Source: a virus. From it: DNA of 21,373 nt. The notes under the pieces are model-generated. The model had not been told where the DNA came from, did no database searches, and worked only from the letters and a program-made list of their open reading frames with translations. Shown here piece by piece: positions 7,613-21,373 of the stretch (position 1 is the first letter of the stretch; each line of letters opens with the position of its first letter). The DNA lies in the IMG/VR virus record IMGVR_UViG_3300020404_001042, positions 1 through 21,373 of that record, one strand, 5' to 3'. The position numbers and the translations under genes are program-made.

Positions 7613-10600
7613 TTATCCCCAGACTACTGAACCACCGCTATCATATACTTTTAATAATCTATTTGAACTATCATATAGATCTTCTATGACAGCATTAGCT
7701 GCTATTGTTACATCATTAAAGGATACACTTGCTCCTGTTGCTACGTCTTGACCAATATGTACCCCAGTTGAATTTGAAGTAACACCAGTACCACCTACTA
7801 CTGCAAAAGATCTAGAAGCAGCTATATTACCACCTCCAGTAAGACCATTTCCAGCAGTTAAAGTAACTGATGTATGATTAATATGTTCGTTTGCTACATA
7901 ACCTGAAAGACTATGTATATCTATTTCTGAATCGTTAGTAAATAAACCAGATGAGTTAGCTGTTAAACCAGTCTGCGCATTAATTGCAACTGCAGGTTCC
8001 CAGCCTTCACCAGCTGAACCTGATACAGTAATACCATTTCCACCAGTAACATTATCTACATAGTTTCCTGAAGTATCAGTTCCTAATGCAATTGCATTTT
8101 GTTTTGTATGGAATGCATATTCAGTTCCACCAGCTAGTTTATGTGTCCATCTATCAGCTGATTCATCCCAATAGAATAAAGCATTTGCTGAATCGCCTCT
8201 CTCTACTTCTAGTCCTGCATCTACTGATGGTGTACCTGATTGATCTTTAGCTATAGTTATTATAGCATCTGTAACTGCTAATGTAGCTGTAGATACTGTT
8301 GTTTGTGTTCCTGAAATTGCTAAGTTACCAGATACGTTTACATCGTTAAACGTTACATTATCTGTAGTTCCTACTGCTTGACCAATATGAACTCCAGACG
8401 AATTAACTGAGACTCCAGTACCCGGTTTTACAAAAGTACCAGTACCGTTGGCTGTTATACCATTATTAGCAAGCACTCTTACTGTTGTACTATTTACTGC
8501 TACACCGCTTCCAGCACCAACTGATACTGCTGTTGAGTTAGTAACAATACCATTACCTGCTCCTACGGTTAATGTTCTAGAGGAAGCAATAGTACCTCCA
8601 CCAGTTAATCCGTTTCCAGCAGATACTGAAACAGTACTATGATCTATATTTTCATTAGCAACATATCCAGATAGATTATGTATATCGATGTTGCCTTCAG
8701 CTATAAAGACCCCTGTTGAATTAGATACTACTTGATTATTACCTGCAGCTACTGCTAGAGTTCTAGAGGCTGCTATAGTACCTCCTCCAGATAAACCATT
8801 ACCTGCAGTTATTGAAACTCCAGAATGATCTATATTTTCATTAGCAACATAGCCTGAAAGATTATGAATATCTATATTTCCTTCTGCAATAAAGACTCCA
8901 GAAGAGTTAGATACCACTTGATTATTACCTGCAGCTACTGCTAGAGTTCTATTAGAAGCTATTGTACCACCACCAGATAATCCATTACCTGCTGATATAG
9001 ATACGCTTGAATGATCTATATTTTCGTTAGCTACGTAGCCTGATAGATTATGTATATCAAGATTTCCTTCAGCTACAAATATTCCTGAGGTATTAGATAC
9101 TACTTGAGAGTTACCTGCTACAACATGAACTCCGGTTGAGTTAGATGCGACACCTGAGCCAGCGGTTACTGCAACTGCAGTTGAATTTACTCCAATACCG
9201 TTACCAGCTCCTACAGCAAAAGTCCTTGAAGCAGCTATTGTACCACCTCCAGTTAAACCATTACCAGCTGTTAGAGTGACTCCACTATGATCAATGTGCT
9301 CATTAGCTACAAAACCAGATAATAGATCGTGACTAATTCCTGATGCATCAGCGTATACTCCTGTTGAGTTAGCTATTATACCAGAACCTGCTACTACATG
9401 AACACCGGTAGAATTAGAAGTTAATCCAAGACCAGATTCAACTGCTATAGCAGTATTATTAGCAGTAATACCGTCACCTTGTCCTGCTGTAATAGTAATA
9501 GTTCCTGTTGAACCACCACCAGTTAAACCTGTGCCAGCTACAACATCAGTAATACTAGAATTACCTACGTCGAATCCAGCATCATTGTTAAATGCAGAAA
9601 GAGGTATTTCTGAAATAAGCTTTCTTCTATCTGCTCCGTTATCTAATATAATTAATTCATCTTCTGAATTATTAACCGCTTGAGTCATATCAGTTAATTC
9701 AGATAAATCTACGGCTAACGTTACAGCTCCTGATGTACCACCACCGCTTAAACCAGTGCCAGCAACAACGGATTCAATGTCTCCCGCGTCGTTTGTAAAA
9801 GTAAATTGTCCAGTTCCACTATCGTAACTTAAGTCGCCTCCGGCACTAAATAAGCCTCTTACTGTAGATTCATTAATACTTAATTTTGTTGAGTTAGCAG
9901 TTAAACCTGTTCCTGCTTCTACGTGTACTCCAGATGCATTAGCTGACAAACCAATACCAGCATCTACTGCAAATGATCTAGAAGCGGCTATTGTACCACC
10001 TCCTGATAGACCGTTTCCGGCTGTTAGAGTTACACCACTATGATCTATATTCTCGTTGGCAACATACCCTGATAAGTTATGGATATCAATATTGCCTTCA
10101 ACTACATAAACTCCTGATGAGTTAGATAATACTTTATTATGACCTGGCTCTACATGAACTCCAGTTGAGTTAGAAGTTAAACCATTTCCTCCAGTAACAG
10201 CTACAGATGTATTATTAACTGTAACACCATTACCTGCACCGACGTTTAATGTTCTGGTTGAAGTTAAATCACCTCCACCAGTTAAACCAGTACCTGGAGA
10301 TATCTCAACTGAACTATGATCTATATTTTCGTTAGCAACATATCCTGAAAGATTGTGAATATCTAAATTACTTTCATCTACAAATACACCAGATGAATTT
10401 GATACTACTTGTGAGTTACCAGCTGCTACTGCTATTGTAGGTGTTCCACCTTCTGCAGCTGAAGAGCCTGAAATACCATTTCCTGCTGTAATTGTTGCTA
10501 CATAGTTACCTGAAGTATCTGTTCCTAGAGCTATATCAGTTTCTTTAGTATGAAAAGCGTACTCTGTTCCGCCTGCTGTTTTATGAGTCCATCTATCTGC

Positions 10601-11560
10601 TGATTCATCCCAGAAGAATAATGCATTAGCAGAGTCACCTCTTTCTACTTCTATACCTGCGTCTTGAGAAGGAGTACCAGTTTGACCTGAAGCAATAGTT
10701 ATTATTGCATCATTAACTACTAAGTTATTAGTATCAACAGATGTTTCAGTTCCTTGAACTGTTAAGTTGCCTGATATTATTACATCACTAAATGTAACAT
10801 CAGCACTAGTACTTACATCTTGACCAATATGAATACCTGTAGAATTAACTGTAACACCAGTACCTCCTACAGCAGTTAATGTTCTACTAGCTGCAATAGT
10901 ACCACCGCCAGTTAATCCATTACCAGCAGTTACGCTAACTCCTGAGTGATCTATATTTTCGTTTGCGACATATCCGGATAGGTTATGAATGTCTATATTT
11001 GATTCTGCTATAAAAATACCAGATGAGTTTGATACTACTTGATTGTTTCCAGCAACTACTGCGAATGATCTAGAAGCAGCTATTGTACCACCTCCAGTTA
11101 ATCCATTACCTGCAGTTAAAGTTACACCCGAATGGTCTATATTTTCATTAGCAACATATCCATTTAGATTATGGATGTCAATGCTTGATTCTGTTACGCT
11201 TAGAAATCCTGTTGAGTTAACACTTACTAGGTCACCTACTTTTATTAGACCAGATACTGTTGAATTTGCTGATGGGATAGTCTGAGCATAAGTTGAACCG
11301 TCGCCCGTACTTAATACAAATGTAGAATTACTTGCAGTATAATCAAAGTCTGATACACCACTTACACTTGCACTTTGAATGTTTGTTACTAGACCTTTTG
11401 CATTAACTGTTACGACTGGAATGGTCGTAGTGTTACCTACTGTACTTGCACTAGCACCTGAAGCTGGTAAAGCTGATGAATTAACGACACCTGAACTGCT
11501 CGCTATTTCTACGCCGCCTACTTCTAAGCCGTTTTTTACTCTAAAATTTTGATTTGCCAT
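7613..11560 (-). CDS. Large repetitive fibre-like virion protein (1315 residues)
   Basis: It begins MANQNFRVKNGLEVGG, an opening common in marine T4-like fibre proteins. Nearly all the rest is beta-type repeat rich in Gly, Ser, Thr and Asn. Nine copies of a HNLSGYVANENIDHS-like motif start near residues 130, 192, 402, 494, 744, 837, 899, 961 and 1216. They alternate with LTAGNGLTGGGTIAASR and SNSTGVHV-type strands. Two copies of a FFWDESADRWTHK module lie near 254-355 and 1069-1168. The C-terminus ends SNRLLKVYDSGGSVVWG. I infer an elongated, probably trimeric, fibre or whisker. Its place immediately before gp13 equals that of T4 wac, but no sequence similarity to fibritin is evident. No enzyme motif, signal peptide or membrane segment is seen. 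Translation has a GGGGA-type ribosome site and an upstream late-promoter octamer. Confidence 0.85.
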   Translation of the reverse strand: MANQNFRVKNGLEVGGVEIASSSGVVNSSALPASGASASTVGNTTTIPVVTVNAKGLVTNIQSASVSGVSDFDYTASNSTFVLSTGDGSTYAQTIPSANSTVSGLIKVGDLVSVNSTGFLSVTESSIDIHNLNGYVANENIDHSGVTLTAGNGLTGGGTIAASRSFAVVAGNNQVVSNSSGIFIAESNIDIHNLSGYVANENIDHSGVSVTAGNGLTGGGTIAASRTLTAVGGTGVTVNSTGIHIGQDVSTSADVTFSDVIISGNLTVQGTETSVDTNNLVVNDAIITIASGQTGTPSQDAGIEVERGDSANALFFWDESADRWTHKTAGGTEYAFHTKETDIALGTDTSGNYVATITAGNGISGSSAAEGGTPTIAVAAGNSQVVSNSSGVFVDESNLDIHNLSGYVANENIDHSSVEISPGTGLTGGGDLTSTRTLNVGAGNGVTVNNTSVAVTGGNGLTSNSTGVHVEPGHNKVLSNSSGVYVVEGNIDIHNLSGYVANENIDHSGVTLTAGNGLSGGGTIAASRSFAVDAGIGLSANASGVHVEAGTGLTANSTKLSINESTVRGLFSAGGDLSYDSGTGQFTFTNDAGDIESVVAGTGLSGGGTSGAVTLAVDLSELTDMTQAVNNSEDELIILDNGADRRKLISEIPLSAFNNDAGFDVGNSSITDVVAGTGLTGGGSTGTITITAGQGDGITANNTAIAVESGLGLTSNSTGVHVVAGSGIIANSTGVYADASGISHDLLSGFVANEHIDHSGVTLTAGNGLTGGGTIAASRTFAVGAGNGIGVNSTAVAVTAGSGVASNSTGVHVVAGNSQVVSNTSGIFVAEGNLDIHNLSGYVANENIDHSSVSISAGNGLSGGGTIASNRTLAVAAGNNQVVSNSSGVFIAEGNIDIHNLSGYVANENIDHSGVSITAGNGLSGGGTIAASRTLAVAAGNNQVVSNSTGVFIAEGNIDIHNLSGYVANENIDHSTVSVSAGNGLTGGGTIASSRTLTVGAGNGIVTNSTAVSVGAGSGVAVNSTTVRVLANNGITANGTGTFVKPGTGVSVNSSGVHIGQAVGTTDNVTFNDVNVSGNLAISGTQTTVSTATLAVTDAIITIAKDQSGTPSVDAGLEVERGDSANALFYWDESADRWTHKLAGGTEYAFHTKQNAIALGTDTSGNYVDNVTGGNGITVSGSAGEGWEPAVAINAQTGLTANSSGLFTNDSEIDIHSLSGYVANEHINHTSVTLTAGNGLTGGGNIAASRSFAVVGGTGVTSNSTGVHIGQDVATGASVSFNDVTIAANAVIEDLYDSSNRLLKVYDSGGSVVWG
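8056..8356 (-). repeat. Second copy of the ~100-residue 'DESADRWTH' module
   Basis: It encodes SGNLAISGT, DAIITIAKDQSGTPSVDAG, EVERGDSANALFYWDES, ADRWTHK and GTDTSGNYV. This is collinear with the copy at 10497-10800, with scattered substitutions. Both copies are followed by a GNGI segment and then repeat strands, so each seems to be inserted at an equivalent point. Confidence 0.85.
8560..9110 (-). repeat. Tandem 186-bp (62-residue) repeats inside the fibre gene
   Basis: Three successive units have their first His codons at 9050-9052, 8864-8866 and 8678-8680, exactly 186 bp apart. Each encodes HNLSGYVANENIDHS, then a GNGLSGGGTIA segment, then AGNNQVVSNS and a GVFIAEGNIDI segment. The third unit diverges after about 40 residues. 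Units differ mostly at third codon positions, with short blocks of perfect identity. Confidence 0.9.
10497..10800 (-). repeat. First copy of the ~100-residue 'DESADRWTH' module
   Basis: This segment encodes SGNLTVQGT, then DAIITIASGQTGTPSQDAG, EVERGDSANALFFWDES, ADRWTHK and GTDTSGNYV. A second copy with the same blocks in the same order lies at about 8056-8356 in the same gene. The module looks like a folded spacer or knob inserted between repeat arrays. Confidence 0.85.
10860..11200 (-). repeat. Second pair of 186-bp repeats in the fibre gene
   Basis: Two copies of the 62-residue unit have His codons at 11171-11173 and 10985-10987, again 186 bp apart. Single copies occur with His codons at 10355-10357, 10079-10081, 9329-9331 (degenerate, one residue longer) and 7913-7915. 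Confidence 0.85.
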
Positions 11561-13284: not shown

Positions 13285-14772
13285 TTAATAAGTTCCACCG
13301 TCAATGATAGCTTCAATGTAAGCAAGATTACTTGCTGTGTAAGAAACTTCGTTTCCTGGTTCACCTGTTATGCCTTCTATAAATACGAAAGCTTTATTTG
13401 AATTACTTTTATCTCTAAACATTCCTGAGAACTTCTGAGTATCAGAGTCATCAAATGTCATATAAAGACCAGTATCAACTAAGTCAGCATCAGTAGCTGT
13501 TTGGTTAGCAGCTAACTTAATTAAGTTATCATTTATTTCAACTGTAGTAGAAGAAACAGTTGTAGTTGTTCCTGAAACTATTAAGTTACCAGAAACTGTT
13601 AAAACACCGCCAACAGTAGCTGCGCCAACAATTGCAGCAGAAGCAGCATTAACTTCACCAGTAATGTCTACATCAGCTCCAGCTGTTAAAGTACTTCCAA
13701 TAGAAGCAGCACCTACGATTGCTGCAGAAGCAGCATTTACTTCGCCAGTAATATCTACATCAGCACCAGCTGTAATAGTACTAGTTACTCCTAAAGTACT
13801 ACCTACAGTAGCTGCGCCAACTATTGCAGCAGAAGCTGCATTAACTTCACCAGTAATATCAACGTCACCACTTGCTATAACATGAGAAGCTGATACGTTA
13901 CCTGAGAAAGTACCAACGCCAGTTACGTTTAATGGTTGAGTTGCTACGACATGAGTTGCGTTACTATATAAGTTATCTGGTTGTACATATACATCAGAAC
14001 CCATACCACTATGAATTTCACAGAAGTAATAAAGATGATTTGGTGCATCTTGTTCTAATTGTACTCTTGTATAAGCACCTGCATTACCTGGTGAGCCTAC
14101 TTGCTCATAGATTTTAAATCCACTTGCTGTGCCTTGTGATACTTCTGAACCGTTTGCAGCAGTACCAAATGCTAGTGGATGGCCATTGTTTGTTCCGTCT
14201 GATTGGTCAAACCAATATATAACTCCTGGTACTAGTCTTAGTTTTTGCTGTGTTGTTCCATCGATAGCGTATTTATTTCCGCCATCAGAAACTACAGTAA
14301 CTACATGTTGTGAACCTTTGTTCTCAACTAATAAAGCAGTTGTTGATGTATTAGTTACTACAAGACCGTTATTACCTGTTATAGTAATAGTATCAGCATC
14401 TGCGTCTCCACCTAATACTAAAGTACCAGTTGAGGATGTACCACCTGCTGAAATATCATAGTCTGTTTCTGTTTGTTGAATGTCAATTACAGTTGAATTA
14501 CCTGAAACAGTAATACCACCTGAACCAACAAATTGAATTTGATCATTACTTAATGATGTATTATCAACGTTTAAGTTAACAATACCATGTGTTGCATTAC
14601 TTGTAGAGGTTAGATTATACTGATCCCCTGATAAAGTAAATGAGTTTCCTGTTGCGTTGGCACTATACAGCTTCTTTGCTGAAATATCAATCGCTAATTC
14701 GCCTTCTGTTAAAGTACCATCAGCAGGAGCTCCTGAACCTCTTCTTAATTTAATTAATGCTTGTCTAGCCAT
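13285..14772 (-). CDS. Modular tail-fibre-like protein with cupredoxin-like domain (495 residues)
   Basis: Residues 1-45 (ALIKLRRGSGAPADG, LTEGELAIDI, KKLYSA) are the shared N-terminal domain. Residues 60-150 are beta repeats. Residues 155-265 form a cupredoxin-like domain: H198 in NNGHPLAF, then YYFCEIHSGMGS with C251, H254 and M257. This is the H + C-x2-H-x2-M pattern of type 1 copper sites such as amicyanin. Residues 302-388 contain three copies of DVDITGEVNAASAAIVGAA. Residues 393-495 resemble the SGNL-V-SGT module of the large fibre protein and end in IDGGTY. No signal peptide is seen, so the protein is presumably made in the cytoplasm and built into the tail. The copper ligands are visible; metal binding is inferred. 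The ribosome site AAGAGG supports the start. Confidence 0.85.
   Translation of the reverse strand: MARQALIKLRRGSGAPADGTLTEGELAIDISAKKLYSANATGNSFTLSGDQYNLTSTSNATHGIVNLNVDNTSLSNDQIQFVGSGGITVSGNSTVIDIQQTETDYDISAGGTSSTGTLVLGGDADADTITITGNNGLVVTNTSTTALLVENKGSQHVVTVVSDGGNKYAIDGTTQQKLRLVPGVIYWFDQSDGTNNGHPLAFGTAANGSEVSQGTASGFKIYEQVGSPGNAGAYTRVQLEQDAPNHLYYFCEIHSGMGSDVYVQPDNLYSNATHVVATQPLNVTGVGTFSGNVSASHVIASGDVDITGEVNAASAAIVGAATVGSTLGVTSTITAGADVDITGEVNAASAAIVGAASIGSTLTAGADVDITGEVNAASAAIVGAATVGGVLTVSGNLIVSGTTTTVSSTTVEINDNLIKLAANQTATDADLVDTGLYMTFDDSDTQKFSGMFRDKSNSNKAFVFIEGITGEPGNEVSYTASNLAYIEAIIDGGTY
13609..13869 (-). repeat. Three short in-frame repeats in the 495-residue fibre protein
   Basis: Residues 302-325, 337-361 and 366-388 each encode (G/A)DVDITGEVNAASAAIVG followed by AA(T/S)(V/I)G. 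Spacers between copies differ (TLGVTSTITAGA against TLTAGA), so unit length varies. The pattern fits stacked turns of a beta-helical or triple-beta fibre shaft. Confidence 0.85.
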
Positions 14773-15040: not shown

Positions 15041-15789
15041 TAATAAGTTCCACCATCTAAATCACCAAAGTCAACGTCGTTATCTGTGACTATCATTACC
15101 TGACCGTTAGACCCGGTTTTAAAATCCATTGTGCTTGAGTTAGCTGAAGCTAAGACTGCATTAGCAGTAAAGCTAGTAACTCCGGTACCACCATCTTTCA
15201 CTTCCAGAGGTGCTGATAAACTAGTTATAGTTGCATTAACTAAATTAGCATTGCTTAAGCTTGCTCCGCTAAAACCAGTATTACCATTATATTTAGCTCC
15301 TGAAATAAAGATACCTTTACCAGCAGTTACACCTGAAGGTAAATTAGTTCCTATAAAATGAAGTACGCCTGATTGATAATCAAAATACCATTCATCGCTA
15401 TTTCCTGAGCCAGTTTCAAATAGTTGTGTTCCGTTAGAAGCAGGATTACCTGATCCTGCTGTATCAACATATACTTTTAATTGATATGTTGCTCCAAAAG
15501 AAGAAGGTACCCAATTTGTTATATTTGACTTCCATGTACGTCTAGCAGTAGACGTAACATCTTCTGTTGTTGCTTGTTCTGTATATATTATTAATGGACC
15601 TGTATTTGCTCCAGGTTGAGTGCTTGGAATACTTCCTGCGTCAGTCCATATAGTAGAAGGTTTTATTATAAATTCAGATACAATAGATTCGTTAGGAGCT
15701 TTCTTATTTGCATTAGTGTCGGTTTTAACTTTACTAAATCCTATCTTCTTCCAGAGTAAATCAACTTTTTGTGTATCTGATATTGCCAT
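15040..15789 (-). CDS. Virion structural protein of the marine T4-like cluster (249 residues)
   Basis: The N-terminus MAISDTQKVDLLWKKIGF followed by SKVKTDTNANKKAPNES is a segment I recognise as conserved in marine T4-like structural clusters. Residues 40-165 look like a single beta-sandwich (TRRTWKSNITNW-type strand, EWYFDYQSGVLHFIGTNLP, GKGIFISG). Residues 195-215 have the KDGGTGVTSFTANAVL motif frequent in fibre shafts, and the end is QVMIVTDNDVDFGDLDGGTY. The C-terminal DGGTY is shared with the 495-residue protein. It probably links the baseplate to distal fibre parts. TAATG junctions at both ends suggest coupling with the 1129-residue gene before it and the coiled-coil gene after it. Exact location in the virion is unknown. 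Confidence 0.85.
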   Translation of the reverse strand: MAISDTQKVDLLWKKIGFSKVKTDTNANKKAPNESIVSEFIIKPSTIWTDAGSIPSTQPGANTGPLIIYTEQATTEDVTSTARRTWKSNITNWVPSSFGATYQLKVYVDTAGSGNPASNGTQLFETGSGNSDEWYFDYQSGVLHFIGTNLPSGVTAGKGIFISGAKYNGNTGFSGASLSNANLVNATITSLSAPLEVKDGGTGVTSFTANAVLASANSSTMDFKTGSNGQVMIVTDNDVDFGDLDGGTY

Positions 15790-18700
15790 TATGATATCTC
15801 TAATTTAGTTAAACTTTGACCGCTACTTAATCCTACAGAAACTAATATTTGATTATTAGTAGAAGTAGATGCGTTCTGATCACCTAGTGTTAAAGTGAAT
15901 GAATCATTACTATAACTTGTGCCTGATAGTATTCTATCACCTGAGGTAAATGCACATCCATCTGATCCATTACCACCATTACCTGTATCGGACCCTGGTG
16001 TACCTGCTCCACCATAAGTTACTCCAGCATTAACCCAACCGTTTAACCCAGAGGCGTTATCTATACTTGTGCCTGGTGCTGCTATATGAAATGAGGCTAC
16101 AGTACCAGTTAAAGTAACATTAAAGTTTGCTACGTTTGTTCTTTTAAATGCAAATCTAAAGTATTGAACTCCAGATCTACCAGTATTTAGGTCTGGCCCA
16201 ACCGGTAAATATCCTGAAGAATAATCTACTACATTATGAGCTAATGTTCCGTACCTTTGAATAGCTTCGTCAGTTCCAGCGACAGTAACTGCGCCAGTCC
16301 AAGCATTGTTAACATAATAGTCCACGTTATTAGCAAAGGTAGGAGTAGCATTAGTTGAACTAAAGTTAGATAATCTTTTGCCGTCCGTATCATATGTTGC
16401 TCCTAAGCTGTCTGATACTGGTATTGCATCTTCTCTTACTCCAGATGAATTACCATTATATACAGCTACTTTAGTATTTGCGTATTGTAGAGAAGTTCCT
16501 GTACCATTAACATTTTCCATATTCATGGCAAAGCCTTCTACTCTTCTTCCTCCACCATTAACTGCAATTTGGAATGTTTCTATACTAACATTAGCACCTA
16601 CTCCAGTATTAGCTTTAGGATAACCAGATGCTAGAGTTGATGAAGGTAAAATTGAATAACCTTTAGTTTGATTTGCAAATGCATTACCACTATCTCCTTC
16701 TATATTAGTACCGTTAGAAATATTAAATGGAGTAGAATCATTTTTATAAAATTGCCCTGCTACATTGCTTACTAAAGCACCTACTACATTAAGAGATGCA
16801 TCATTAGTATAATAAGGTACGCCTGAAACATATGCTAAAGTACCTGCAGAGTTCTGTGTCAAGGTAGTTCCATTAAAGTTCATTACTGGAGTACCTGTTA
16901 AATTATCTTTAGCAAATTCTAATACGGAAGTATTACCAGTAGCCGAATGGCTTAATTTATAAGTATGAGAACCTGTTGCTAAAGAAGACTTGTTTATTCT
17001 AGCTCTAAAGCCAGAATATAATCCAGGAGCATAAATTCTATTTCCTGATGAGACGCTTGAACCGTCATTACCAAAATTATAGAAGTCTAGCTCATCTACT
17101 ATAGTTAGAGCGTTATTTGATCCTGTATCGTCTCCAGATGTAAATGAGATAGAGCCGTCAACTGAACCATCAACTATAGCAGATAAAGAACCTGCTCCTG
17201 CATTATAAACCACTTGTGAATTAGCTTCACCTGATGTTTGAATGCTACCTGTTGTAGTGTATCTAGTTACTGAATCTCCTGCAGCGAATGAGCCTTCAGA
17301 TGTATTATTAATAAACCCTGAAGCTAATCTAGGAGAAGAACCTACTGAACTAGAAGTTAGTGTTAATGTTTTACTTGAGAGCCCCTCTGGAGCTGCTATA
17401 CCAGTATTGAATACCTTAATTGTCTTTGTCGCTATATCAGGTATTGCTGCTGGGTTAGCTGTTGAATGTGAATTAATTGAAAATGTTATTGTGTTTGTTG
17501 ATGAACCTGTTCCGGTAGTATACGTATGGGATAATCTTCCTCCCTGAGTACCACCTGCAACAGAAGTATTAGCAATGGCTGAAGTATCTCCATCACCCCA
17601 GTTAACAAAGAAAGTAGCTACTACATCATTAGCATTAGTAGTTTCATTATCTAAATATATTACTTGATTAATATTAGCTTCTGTAATCTCTGATCCGCCT
17701 GACGAAGCATCAAATATATCAAAGTCAGCATTAGGATCACCTGTAAATAAAGTAATTAAATCCGTAGCTGTTGTTGTTGCATTATTTCCTTCACCTAATG
17801 CATTAGTATTTCTAGCAGTGACTACAACATCAAATGGTGAACTAGCATTATTAGTATAGGTATGAGTAGGGGTAGCGTCTGTAGTATTATTTGTATAGTT
17901 CCCATCACCCCAAGCAATATCATATCTATCAGCATTACCTACTACACCAATAGTTAATGTACTTGTTAAAGGTGCTCCACCAGTATTACCTGAATTACAA
18001 GTTACAGTTACGTCTCTTACATAAGTATTTTGATATACATTAAACATTACTTCATTTAATGAGTCAACGGCATCTGCAACTGATGTAGTGTTTGCTATAG
18101 ATGTTACTGCACCTTCTATATTCCCAGAACCTGAGCCATTTGCAAAGACTCCATCTGTTGGTGCTCCTATTTGTGTTGTATTACCAGTAGTACTTACACC
18201 AGCAATTTGAGTATCAACATAATTTTTATTTGCCACTTGGGAAGCAGCTGCTGGATCAGATGCAACAGTTATCTGATTAGCATAAACATGTTTATAATTA
18301 TTAGTTGTTGAACCTAGATCATATGTTACATTATCAGAAGGAATAATACTTGTATTAACAGTTGCTCCTAATGATATTACATCACCACCATCACCAAGTT
18401 GTATACTTGAACCTCTTAAAATAAAGTCGCCGTTAACTGTTAAGTTATTAGAAATGGATAAATCATTAGCATGCAATGTACCAGTTAAGGTCATTACTGT
18501 TGAATTGGCAGCTATAATTTGAGGTTCATGAACTCTAACAGTTGAGCCCATACCAGAATGATTACCACAATAGTAAAATAATCTAGTCGGAGCATCTGCT
18601 TCTAAAGATACTATTGAATAAGAACCTGCTTGTCCAGGTGTTCCTACTGAAGTAATTCCTGTAGTAAATTCTGAACCACCACCATGAGTTCCATCTGAAG

Positions 18701-19178
18701 TCTCACTAAATTTAAGAGGATGATTAGCATTAGAATTATCTGAAGTATCAAAGTAATATTTTATACCAGGTAATAATCTGAATACTTGCTGAGCAGTTCC
18801 ATCTATAGCATATTTGTTTCCACCTGAACTTACAACAGTAACTGTATGCTTAAAGCCTTGAAAAGCAGCTTCGGTAATTGATAGGTTAGGTAAAGTAGCA
18901 TTAGTACTTATTACTATATTATTAACCGTTGCAGTACCGTCAACTGTGAGAGCAACTGTTTTAAGATCGTCTACGAAAGATGAAGCATTAACTACTATTG
19001 CTTGATTAGCTGTTAATGTCCCAGGTGTCCTTTGACCTGCGATAGGTACTCCTACGTTAGCAACTGAACTACCTACGTATAGAATATTACCATTAGTAGT
19101 AAATGCTAATTCACCAAATGAAATATTTGCAAACGCGTTTACGGATTGCGAACGTTTTATCTGAATTAAATCGGACAT
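15789..19178 (-). CDS. Large modular tail protein with cupredoxin-like and PKD-like domains (1129 residues)
   Basis: Residues 1-50 (LIQIKRSQSVNAF, FGELAFTTNG, ILYVGSS) are the shared N-terminal domain. Residues 110-218 form a cupredoxin-like domain with H153 (NANHPLKF) and C204, H207, M210 (YYCGNHSGMGS). Residues 300-325 (SDPAAASQVANKNYVDTQI) match a common phage fibre motif. Two PKD-like beta-sandwiches follow: about 385-455 (WGDG at 423-426, HTY at 439-441) and 482-570 (WGDG at 527-530, HTY at 551-553). Residues about 600-1129 are unrecognised beta-rich sequence ending in ILVSVGLSSGQSLTKLEIS, with a Gly-rich NGGNGSDGC segment near 1067-1075. PKD-like folds often extend or bind surface glycans, so a receptor-contacting fibre is plausible. 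GAGG 8 bases upstream supports the start, which overlaps the previous stop as TAATG. Confidence 0.85.
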   Translation of the reverse strand: MSDLIQIKRSQSVNAFANISFGELAFTTNGNILYVGSSVANVGVPIAGQRTPGTLTANQAIVVNASSFVDDLKTVALTVDGTATVNNIVISTNATLPNLSITEAAFQGFKHTVTVVSSGGNKYAIDGTAQQVFRLLPGIKYYFDTSDNSNANHPLKFSETSDGTHGGGSEFTTGITSVGTPGQAGSYSIVSLEADAPTRLFYYCGNHSGMGSTVRVHEPQIIAANSTVMTLTGTLHANDLSISNNLTVNGDFILRGSSIQLGDGGDVISLGATVNTSIIPSDNVTYDLGSTTNNYKHVYANQITVASDPAAASQVANKNYVDTQIAGVSTTGNTTQIGAPTDGVFANGSGSGNIEGAVTSIANTTSVADAVDSLNEVMFNVYQNTYVRDVTVTCNSGNTGGAPLTSTLTIGVVGNADRYDIAWGDGNYTNNTTDATPTHTYTNNASSPFDVVVTARNTNALGEGNNATTTATDLITLFTGDPNADFDIFDASSGGSEITEANINQVIYLDNETTNANDVVATFFVNWGDGDTSAIANTSVAGGTQGGRLSHTYTTGTGSSTNTITFSINSHSTANPAAIPDIATKTIKVFNTGIAAPEGLSSKTLTLTSSSVGSSPRLASGFINNTSEGSFAAGDSVTRYTTTGSIQTSGEANSQVVYNAGAGSLSAIVDGSVDGSISFTSGDDTGSNNALTIVDELDFYNFGNDGSSVSSGNRIYAPGLYSGFRARINKSSLATGSHTYKLSHSATGNTSVLEFAKDNLTGTPVMNFNGTTLTQNSAGTLAYVSGVPYYTNDASLNVVGALVSNVAGQFYKNDSTPFNISNGTNIEGDSGNAFANQTKGYSILPSSTLASGYPKANTGVGANVSIETFQIAVNGGGRRVEGFAMNMENVNGTGTSLQYANTKVAVYNGNSSGVREDAIPVSDSLGATYDTDGKRLSNFSSTNATPTFANNVDYYVNNAWTGAVTVAGTDEAIQRYGTLAHNVVDYSSGYLPVGPDLNTGRSGVQYFRFAFKRTNVANFNVTLTGTVASFHIAAPGTSIDNASGLNGWVNAGVTYGGAGTPGSDTGNGGNGSDGCAFTSGDRILSGTSYSNDSFTLTLGDQNASTSTNNQILVSVGLSSGQSLTKLEIS

Positions 19179-19778: not shown

Positions 19779-20621
19779 CTACGCTTCTTCTATTTCTTCA
19801 CATAGATCTTCCCAGATCATTCTATCTGGAATAACAGTTGATAAAGTAAACCTATTACTTTCTGCATAAGCACTATGCCAGCAGGCAGTTTCACTATCAG
19901 CTAAAATAGGAGTAGTATATGTTTGCTCACTCCTACCATACTTTCCTTTTAACTTATCTTCCCACTTATTAGGATCTGAAATAGTATCATAAAATATACC
20001 AGCTCTAGCCACCCAACCAGGCTTATCTTTATATTCTATTATCTCTCCTTCATCATAAGTATAGAACGATCCCTTACCAACTTTATTATAATGTAATAAG
20101 ATATTATGACCAGGTGCATTACCATTATGATGCCAAGGAATATGGGCTCCAGGAATATAAAAAGCACATAATGCCATTGCTGAACCACCCAACCATTTAG
20201 CTGAGATATCATATACCATATCTCTAAGCCATGCAAAGTCTTCTTCATGATCTGTCCATAATTTTTTACCAGTTAAAAAAGGTTCTAAGTTAGGAAAGCC
20301 TTTTGTTTCATGATGTAAAGGTCCTAGTTCTCTCATAAGTTTCATTTGATATTCTAAATATTCTCTACCAACAGGACTCATTTGTCCCTCTTTAAGAGTA
20401 TCATTCATACTCCATGGTAGTATATCCCAATGTGGGCTAGCTACATAAGGGTCATCTTTAGACTGTTCTTTTCTTATTGCAGGACATTTAAAGTCCCACT
20501 CTTCTTTTAACTTTCTATCTAGTAAAGTTTTATTTTCAAATATCTCATCTACTTTAATTGCTAAAGCATCTAATTTTTCTATAAGTTCTGGATTTTTTAA
20601 TTCCAAAGTTTGCATTTTCAT
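19779..20621 (-). CDS. Putative 2-oxoglutarate/Fe(II) oxygenase-like protein (280 residues)
   Basis: The C-terminal half looks like a double-stranded beta-helix. YIPGAHIPWHHNGNAPGHN (residues 155-173, with H164/H165) is followed by a LLHYNKVGKGSFYTYDEG strand pair and by CWHSAYAESNRFTLSTVI with H249 and R257. These could be the proximal His, distal His and 2-oxoglutarate-binding Arg. The usual acidic ligand of HxD appears to be Asn166, or absent as in aspartyl/asparaginyl beta-hydroxylases. That could mean altered or lost chemistry. The N-terminal half is helical and unrecognised. It overlaps the upstream glycosyltransferase by ATGA and has a strong GGAGG site, so the two are coupled. The substrate may be a sugar or a virion protein; this is unknown. 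Confidence 0.55.
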   Translation of the reverse strand: MKMQTLELKNPELIEKLDALAIKVDEIFENKTLLDRKLKEEWDFKCPAIRKEQSKDDPYVASPHWDILPWSMNDTLKEGQMSPVGREYLEYQMKLMRELGPLHHETKGFPNLEPFLTGKKLWTDHEEDFAWLRDMVYDISAKWLGGSAMALCAFYIPGAHIPWHHNGNAPGHNILLHYNKVGKGSFYTYDEGEIIEYKDKPGWVARAGIFYDTISDPNKWEDKLKGKYGRSEQTYTTPILADSETACWHSAYAESNRFTLSTVIPDRMIWEDLCEEIEEA

Positions 20622-21373
20622 ACAGGATTCCCTCCAGGCCCCATACCAGGTTGAAACTCATCTTCTTTATGTAATCCAGGAGTTTTATCCATTAAGGGTC
20701 TATTTACAGGATGGTGTTTAATTATAGGAGTTAAGCCGCCATGAGAGCGTTCATCCATATAATGGTTCCAATTCCATCTTAACATTTTATGTTTATTATT
20801 ATTTTCTACTTCTTGTATTTTAAGATCGGGTATTAATTTCTGATGTATCCACCACCAAGTAAATTGATCCCATGCTCTATTCTTAAAAAATATTTCAGGA
20901 TGGTCATTCCAAAATTTATCATTGCAGTTTATATTTAAATACTCTGTCCACCAAAGCTTCATAGCTTCTATTGAATTAGGATGCTTATCATTATTCCACC
21001 ATAAGAAAAAACCACCATGATATCTTAAATGTCTTTCCTTATCATTATCACGTACTTCATTTTCACCATCTTCTGTATAGATTGCTGTAGTAGAACCTGT
21101 ATGAGGGTCTATTACAGTAAAAGAACAATCATGATCATCATCTAATAAATCAAAGACTCTATTTATTTCTTCATCTACTATTTCCATATCAGCATCTAGA
21201 TAGCATGTTTTCTCAAACGGTGTATGTTGCAATGCCCATAATTTAGATCTTACGCTTATAGGGAAACCATCACTAACTACTTTTACTACTGAATCTAATC
21301 TTTCAAATTCTTCTACCCATTCAGGATGGCAAGCAACCATAACTTTAGGGTCGTCATAATAATCTTCTAAGCT
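20618..21373 (-). CDS. GT-A-type glycosyltransferase, 5' end outside the window
   Basis: The reading frame remains open to the last base: 11 more codons (SLEDYYDDPKV) precede the first internal ATG at 21338-21340. That ATG has no ribosome site, so the gene starts beyond the window. A central strand ends in the DxD metal/nucleotide-sugar motif (CYLDADMEI). Later motifs RYHGGFFLWWNN and RAWDQFTWWW (an acceptor-side 'DQ' motif) fit GT8-like or related GT-A transferases. The C-terminus is Gly/Pro-rich (FQPGMGPGGNPV). It would move a sugar from a nucleotide donor to an unknown acceptor. Its partner is the oxygenase-like gene it overlaps. The missing N-terminus should hold the first nucleotide-binding strand. 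Confidence 0.75.
   Translation of the reverse strand, partial: SLEDYYDDPKVMVACHPEWVEEFERLDSVVKVVSDGFPISVRSKLWALQHTPFEKTCYLDADMEIVDEEINRVFDLLDDDHDCSFTVIDPHTGSTTAIYTEDGENEVRDNDKERHLRYHGGFFLWWNNDKHPNSIEAMKLWWTEYLNINCNDKFWNDHPEIFFKNRAWDQFTWWWIHQKLIPDLKIQEVENNNKHKMLRWNWNHYMDERSHGGLTPIIKHHPVNRPLMDKTPGLHKEDEFQPGMGPGGNPV

Follow-up and report, generated by a model that had tools for sequence, protein, structure and literature searches.

Does a phage tail fibre carry a genuine cupredoxin domain with a type 1 copper ligand set and, if so, what would such a domain do on a virion? The locus that raises this question lies in a 21,373-base virus record, analysed here over its whole length (the window), which is T4-like by its terminase and has marine cyanophages as its closest isolates (up to 59%).

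Two adjoining fibre genes carry homologous modules

P0001 (positions 13285–14772, minus strand) encodes a 495-aa tail fibre protein, residues 50–349 of which match phrog_30742, 'tail fiber protein' (E = 6e-11). Its genomic place, with the fibres just before the neck genes, is that of the cupredoxin-bearing tail fibre of Methylophilales phage Melnitz-3. The initial annotation had proposed one cupredoxin-like domain in this one fibre. The domain is real, and the ORF contains H198, C251, H254 and M257 exactly where they had been numbered. We placed the module at residues 154–264 (13981–14313, minus strand), within a codon of the limits first given. The putative copper ligands, all encoded on the minus strand, are H198 (codon 14179–14181) in the HP motif of NNGHPLAF, followed by C251 (14020–14022), H254 (14011–14013) and the putative axial ligand M257 (14002–14004), the last three lying in YYFCEIHSGMGS. 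C251 is the sole cysteine of P0001 and M257 is one of its four methionines.

A second copy, in the adjoining fibre ORF, had been overlooked. Searching the record against itself located module 2 at residues 109–217 (18528–18854, minus strand) of P0002, near the N terminus of this 1129-aa fibre/tail protein (15789–19178, minus strand). The two modules are homologous, with 61% identity over the aligned module, and the putative ligands of module 2 are H153, C204, H207 and M210. Residues 596–1128 of P0002 match phrog_8578, a family of unknown function (E = 6.4e-62); its position and the N terminus that it shares with fibres point to a fibre role. At approximately 31%, the C-terminal half of P0002 (15792–17393, minus strand) resembles proteins annotated as hypothetical in giant phages of Caulobacter and Brevundimonas.

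Predicted fold of the modules

We modelled module 1 with AlphaFold2 using 32 viral sequences (pLDDT 92.3, pTM 0.86) and module 2 using 31 sequences (pLDDT 93.2, pTM 0.85). In the models, both modules form the Greek-key β-sandwich of seven to nine strands that characterizes the cupredoxin superfamily, and comparison with the PDB bears out, for both copies, the cupredoxin sandwich proposed initially. In Foldseek searches of the PDB, rusticyanin ranked first for module 1 (E = 1.6e-4), followed by the cupredoxin domains of nitrite reductases, multicopper oxidases (laccases) and plastocyanin; nitrite reductase and rusticyanin led the list for module 2. The best VIA rows of module 1 had Z values of 8.5–8.7 over 93–99 residues at 2.4–2.7 Å, and module 2 reached Z 9.4 to rusticyanin 2cal over 98 residues at 2.6 Å. 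The VIA superpositions spanned the whole model for both modules, and the VIA lists consisted of cupredoxins exclusively. The TM-scores by query of the top-ranked PDB chains were moderate for both modules (0.49–0.60), and the structural scores in general lie close to the level that a merely common arrangement might produce. An immunoglobulin-domain identity was not supported, antibody chains appearing only low in the Foldseek list of module 2.

The ligands occupy the places expected of a cupredoxin: the first His stands just before a strand, the Cys ends the last-but-one strand, and the second His and the Met lie in the loop preceding the last strand. Together with the full-length superposition on cupredoxins, these strand-order places suggest that the four side chains would cluster in the folded module. 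Among viral fold predictions in BFVD, the fold of the module also matched A0A481Z6J5, A0A481Z7Q7 and A0A481YWX9 (E values from 5.5e-6 to 2.7e-5), which are 'Beta-sandwich proteins' of giant viruses known from metagenomes and similar to Pithovirus and Marseillevirus.

Conservation of the four putative ligands

The H, C, H and M positions were all invariant in 32 viral relatives (alignment A1). We also recruited relatives by a loop alone, with the pattern [DN]G[TS]H[GNA][GS]G[ST][EA], which lies after the first His and before the Cys and leaves the ligands out. Among the 80 unique domains found in this way, the first His was kept in 79/80, the Cys in 79/79, the second His in 78/78 and the Met in 77/78 (one Leu); as these domains are fairly alike and their other columns score high through selection by the pattern and by confirmation, the set tests the ligand columns only. 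In domains from cell-genome contigs, each of the four ligands was present in 85/85 and ranked among the most conserved columns. Cell-genome domains recruited by C..H..M alone retained the first His (57/57), and those recruited by the HP motif alone retained C, H and M (20/20).

In a Melnitz-like set, C-x2-H-x2-M was intact in 62 of 64 unique domains, the exceptions being one domain cut by a contig end and L341, which has an insertion in the loop. The ligands are likewise kept in the isolates Melnitz-3, Mosig, P-SSM2 and P-HM1. In P-HM1 and in L131 the loop reads C-x2-H-x3-M, so that its length has changed with the ligands in place. The module family thus has the conserved His...Cys-xn-His-xn-Met arrangement of a type 1 site at its canonical places. 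The initial annotation had named free variation of His, Cys and Met among homologues as grounds against its proposal; instead, these residues are near-invariant, even in relatives recruited without ligand motifs. By chance, C..H..M appeared in 0.0115% of 200,000 shuffles of P0001 and H-x40..65-C-x2-H-x2-M in 0.0035%; conservation in relatives is the stronger evidence, and because of it we ruled out a chance motif as the origin of the four ligands.

Downstream of its first His (14062–14172, minus strand), module 1 lacks the loop DGTHGGGS and has the insertion SGFKIYEQ instead, as do its close relatives. This loop is nearly invariant in all other relatives, and its absence from module 1 and its kin indicates that the family can dispense with the conserved His of the loop.

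Sequence relationship to copper proteins

Whole-protein searches of Pfam, NCBIfam and PDB sequences revealed no cupredoxin in the fibres, and neither Pfam nor NCBIfam has a model that names the window module. Module 1 alone matched no Pfam family at E ≤ 10, and the A1 profile retrieved only two antibody matches (E 0.7 and 1.4) from the PDB sequences. PF00127 (Copper-bind; plastocyanin/azurin) matched 10 of the 32 viral modules weakly (best E = 0.0079), more than any other Pfam family by a wide margin; the window module gave no match, staying below the gathering cut-off of 21.2 bits, and is hence not a PF00127 member by this measure.

The link to accepted copper proteins runs through a Prochlorococcus cupredoxin (HPF plus CSPHASFGMGG) found by a PF00127 search at 34–35 bits. 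Profile comparison aligned the module family with this cupredoxin at 97% (E = 6e-11), with all four ligands in register. Plastocyanin-type proteins on their own gave weak profile matches (20–68%), so the bridging Prochlorococcus family is needed. One cellular member, from a Woeseiaceae genome, scores 25.6 bits in PF00127 and passes when its domain is the query; searched as a whole protein it falls just below the cut-off, at 20.4 bits. Given the profile link to Copper-bind proteins, superfamily membership follows from sequence as well as from fold, and the module almost certainly belongs to the cupredoxin superfamily, within which it is a family of its own. The cupredoxin-like domain with a type 1 ligand set described initially was thus upheld by fold, ligand conservation and homology, with the qualification that the window domain itself has no Pfam match. 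The bridging Prochlorococcus cupredoxin, which is not plastocyanin, occupies a 148-aa open frame in two genomes (L181:1492–1752 and L184:1501–1776); with HPF and C-x2-H-x4-M, it provides the nearest link between the phage module and cellular proteins.

Comparison with individual cupredoxins places the module apart from each of them. Amicyanin of Paracoccus denitrificans binds copper through His53, Cys92, His95 and Met98 (PMC12723479), and its C-x2-H-x2-M spacing is the same as that of the window module, as had been noted from the sequence. The two share the fold, the four ligand types and this loop, but amicyanin is a free electron carrier whereas the module sits in a virion fibre, and the first His is followed by Asn in amicyanin and by Pro in the module; owing to this substitution, we did not file the module as an amicyanin. 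Rusticyanin, the best Foldseek match of module 1 and the best VIA match of module 2, is only about 8–18% identical to the module and differs in its longer ligand loop, its extra N-terminal part, Ser86 in place of Pro after the first His and its role as a respiratory protein.

Distribution and exchange of the module

A tblastn search with the module matched 65 of 50,697 phage records. The named ones are all of marine kinds (cyanophages, Methylophilales and Pelagibacter phages, and marine virus records), and hundreds of environmental viral contigs contain the module as well. Cyanophage Syn1 is another isolate that has it. The PHROGs that bear it comprise tail fibre, baseplate wedge-fibre connector, baseplate wedge subunit and virion structural proteins, and tandem pairs occur in 15 of 161 viral ORFs. 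The presence of such a domain in a fibre, called unexpected at the outset, stands as an observation but is not a peculiarity of this protein, since tail proteins of marine phages carry the module widely.

Among the cellular relatives are SAR86 proteins that open with a leader and a Cys-Gly-rich stretch, as is typical of lipoproteins, and that probably are lipoproteins; others are RTX proteins and, in gammaproteobacteria, cadherin/Ig-domain proteins. When the cell-genome relatives were checked for phage origin, L090 and L113 proved to lie among metabolic genes of the chromosome. A phage T7 tail-fibre domain is present in L137, which L151 resembles; some of the contigs assigned to cells, such as these two, are probably viral. 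In two SAR86 genomes (L090:4866–8400 and L153:4821–8308), a short cupredoxin that is probably a lipoprotein precedes an exported protein of 997–1033 aa in the same gene order; the exported protein had no Pfam match when the L090 copy was searched.

We compared orthologues of P0001 recruited by its N-terminal 153 residues only. The module is present in L163, L164, L165, L166 and L167 and absent from L168, L169, L170/L171, L172, L173/L174 and L175. In L173, residues 1–103 and 294–495 of P0001 are matched at 68% and 75%, respectively, and the stretch between them is missing; L173 and L174 are records of equal length and probably represent one virus. Orthologues of P0002 have the module in L163, L172 and L173/L174 and lack it in L167 and L175. 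The comparison hence yields viruses with both copies (the window, L163), the first only (L167), the second only (L172, L173) and neither (L175). Judging from these alignments, the module is exchangeable among tail proteins and accessory to the fibres.

Proposed role of the module and alternatives

The reading we favour, with somewhat more confidence than doubt, is an accessory fibre module that holds one copper and helps attachment. Its parts differ in strength. The module quite probably binds a metal, and copper is the likely, if marginally less assured, identity of that metal. An attachment role, suggested by position and domain company, is more tentative, at slightly under an even chance. 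Attachment is favoured by the cell-surface display of the cellular relatives and by the place of the module on host-facing parts of the virion; the frequent loss of the module favours an accessory role over an essential redox trigger. In the proposed mechanism, one copper ion would be acquired during lysis or from seawater and would tie the strand of the first His to the C-terminal loop. The copper-bound sandwich would be rigid and form a stiff knob on the fibre, an accessory adhesion unit adding contacts by which the virion attaches to the host surface or to particles. Adhesion of this kind is modelled on Ig-like accessory domains, which are thought to act so in other phages. Such domains of phage structural proteins are dispensable and shuffled among tail proteins; the module is also a dispensable, shuffled β-sandwich, but it belongs to another fold family and has a conserved metal-ligand set.

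Two points count against this reading. The cytoplasm in which phage proteins fold is reducing and has little free copper, and Pro follows the first His in both window copies and in nearly all relatives. His-Pro is also found at the type 1 site of multicopper oxidases, which means that the Pro does not exclude a working site. The same residue, set against the site-tuning Asn54 of amicyanin and Ser86 of rusticyanin, would suit a structural staple or sequestering site that takes another metal, such as zinc, or Cu(I) only, rather than a type 1 redox centre; cupredoxin folds do host varied copper centres. We consider this unlikely, since Cys-His-His-Met is the classical copper set and profile comparison places Copper-bind proteins closest to the module. 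A borrowed β-sandwich that has lost its metal and serves only as a protein-binding knob would be in keeping with the existence of metal-free cupredoxin folds and with orthologous fibres that manage without the module. This reading, raised initially as a structural relic that kept its ligands, is disfavoured by ligand conservation and has little probability: each ligand is kept in 85/85 domains of the cell-genome set and is near-invariant in the loop-recruited viral samples, and a change of loop length to C-x2-H-x3-M is tolerated with the ligands retained.

A redox or electron-transfer module reacting with a host-surface partner, for instance as a trigger for tail contraction, could draw on the complete type 1 ligand set and on the small residues around the second His (HSGMG), which may correspond to an exposed electron-transfer face. 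There is, however, no partner, we know of no precedent for electron transfer in a virion, and copies in many unrelated tail proteins, frequently lost, are ill-suited to a trigger; we regard this as the least probable of the readings. The site might instead mimic a copper-loaded ligand, so that the fibre docks on a copper or metal receptor in the host outer membrane. Here there is an iron precedent on marine phage fibres: T4 gp37 contains seven iron ions, the tails of marine phages include HxH motifs, and under the Trojan Horse idea the iron in these fibre motifs would serve docking on host receptors (PMC11705849). The marine kinds of all named phage records with the module would agree with such piracy. 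The analogy is one of a metal, putative in the module, on a host-contacting fibre; it differs in that the iron sits in HxH pairs and the module is a folded copper-type domain, and no HxH motif occurs among the His positions of either window fibre. Receptor mimicry appears improbable: no receptor is known, orthologous fibres can do without the module, and its cellular relatives are surface proteins rather than receptor ligands.

Significance and further features of the window

A literature search, made mostly without subscription journals, returned no relevant paper on cupredoxins in phage fibres, cyanophages or virions, and the paper describing Melnitz does not mention them (PMC9004378). The module nevertheless occurs in isolated cyanophages, pelagiphages and methylophages despite the lack of a family model that names it. 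If it holds copper, phage particles would be copper ligands in seawater, adsorption may be influenced by copper, and the iron-only Trojan Horse idea would extend to a second trace metal. The broadest version would have a sizeable fraction of marine tailed phages bearing copper-loaded type 1 sites on their fibres and baseplates, sites that they share with bacterial surface cupredoxins, and copper acting in host recognition; it is a speculation we think rather unlikely. The system offers a simple handle, namely one 110-aa domain with four residues in cultured phages.

Elsewhere in the window, a 1315-aa fibre (7613–11560, minus strand) with PHROG tail protein matches contains repeated 'NIDIHNLSGYVANENIDHS ... 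AGNGLTGGGTIA' units. Beside the module-bearing fibres, two ORFs (19779–21340, minus strand) resemble, by eye only, a 2-oxoglutarate/iron oxygenase and a glycosyltransferase.
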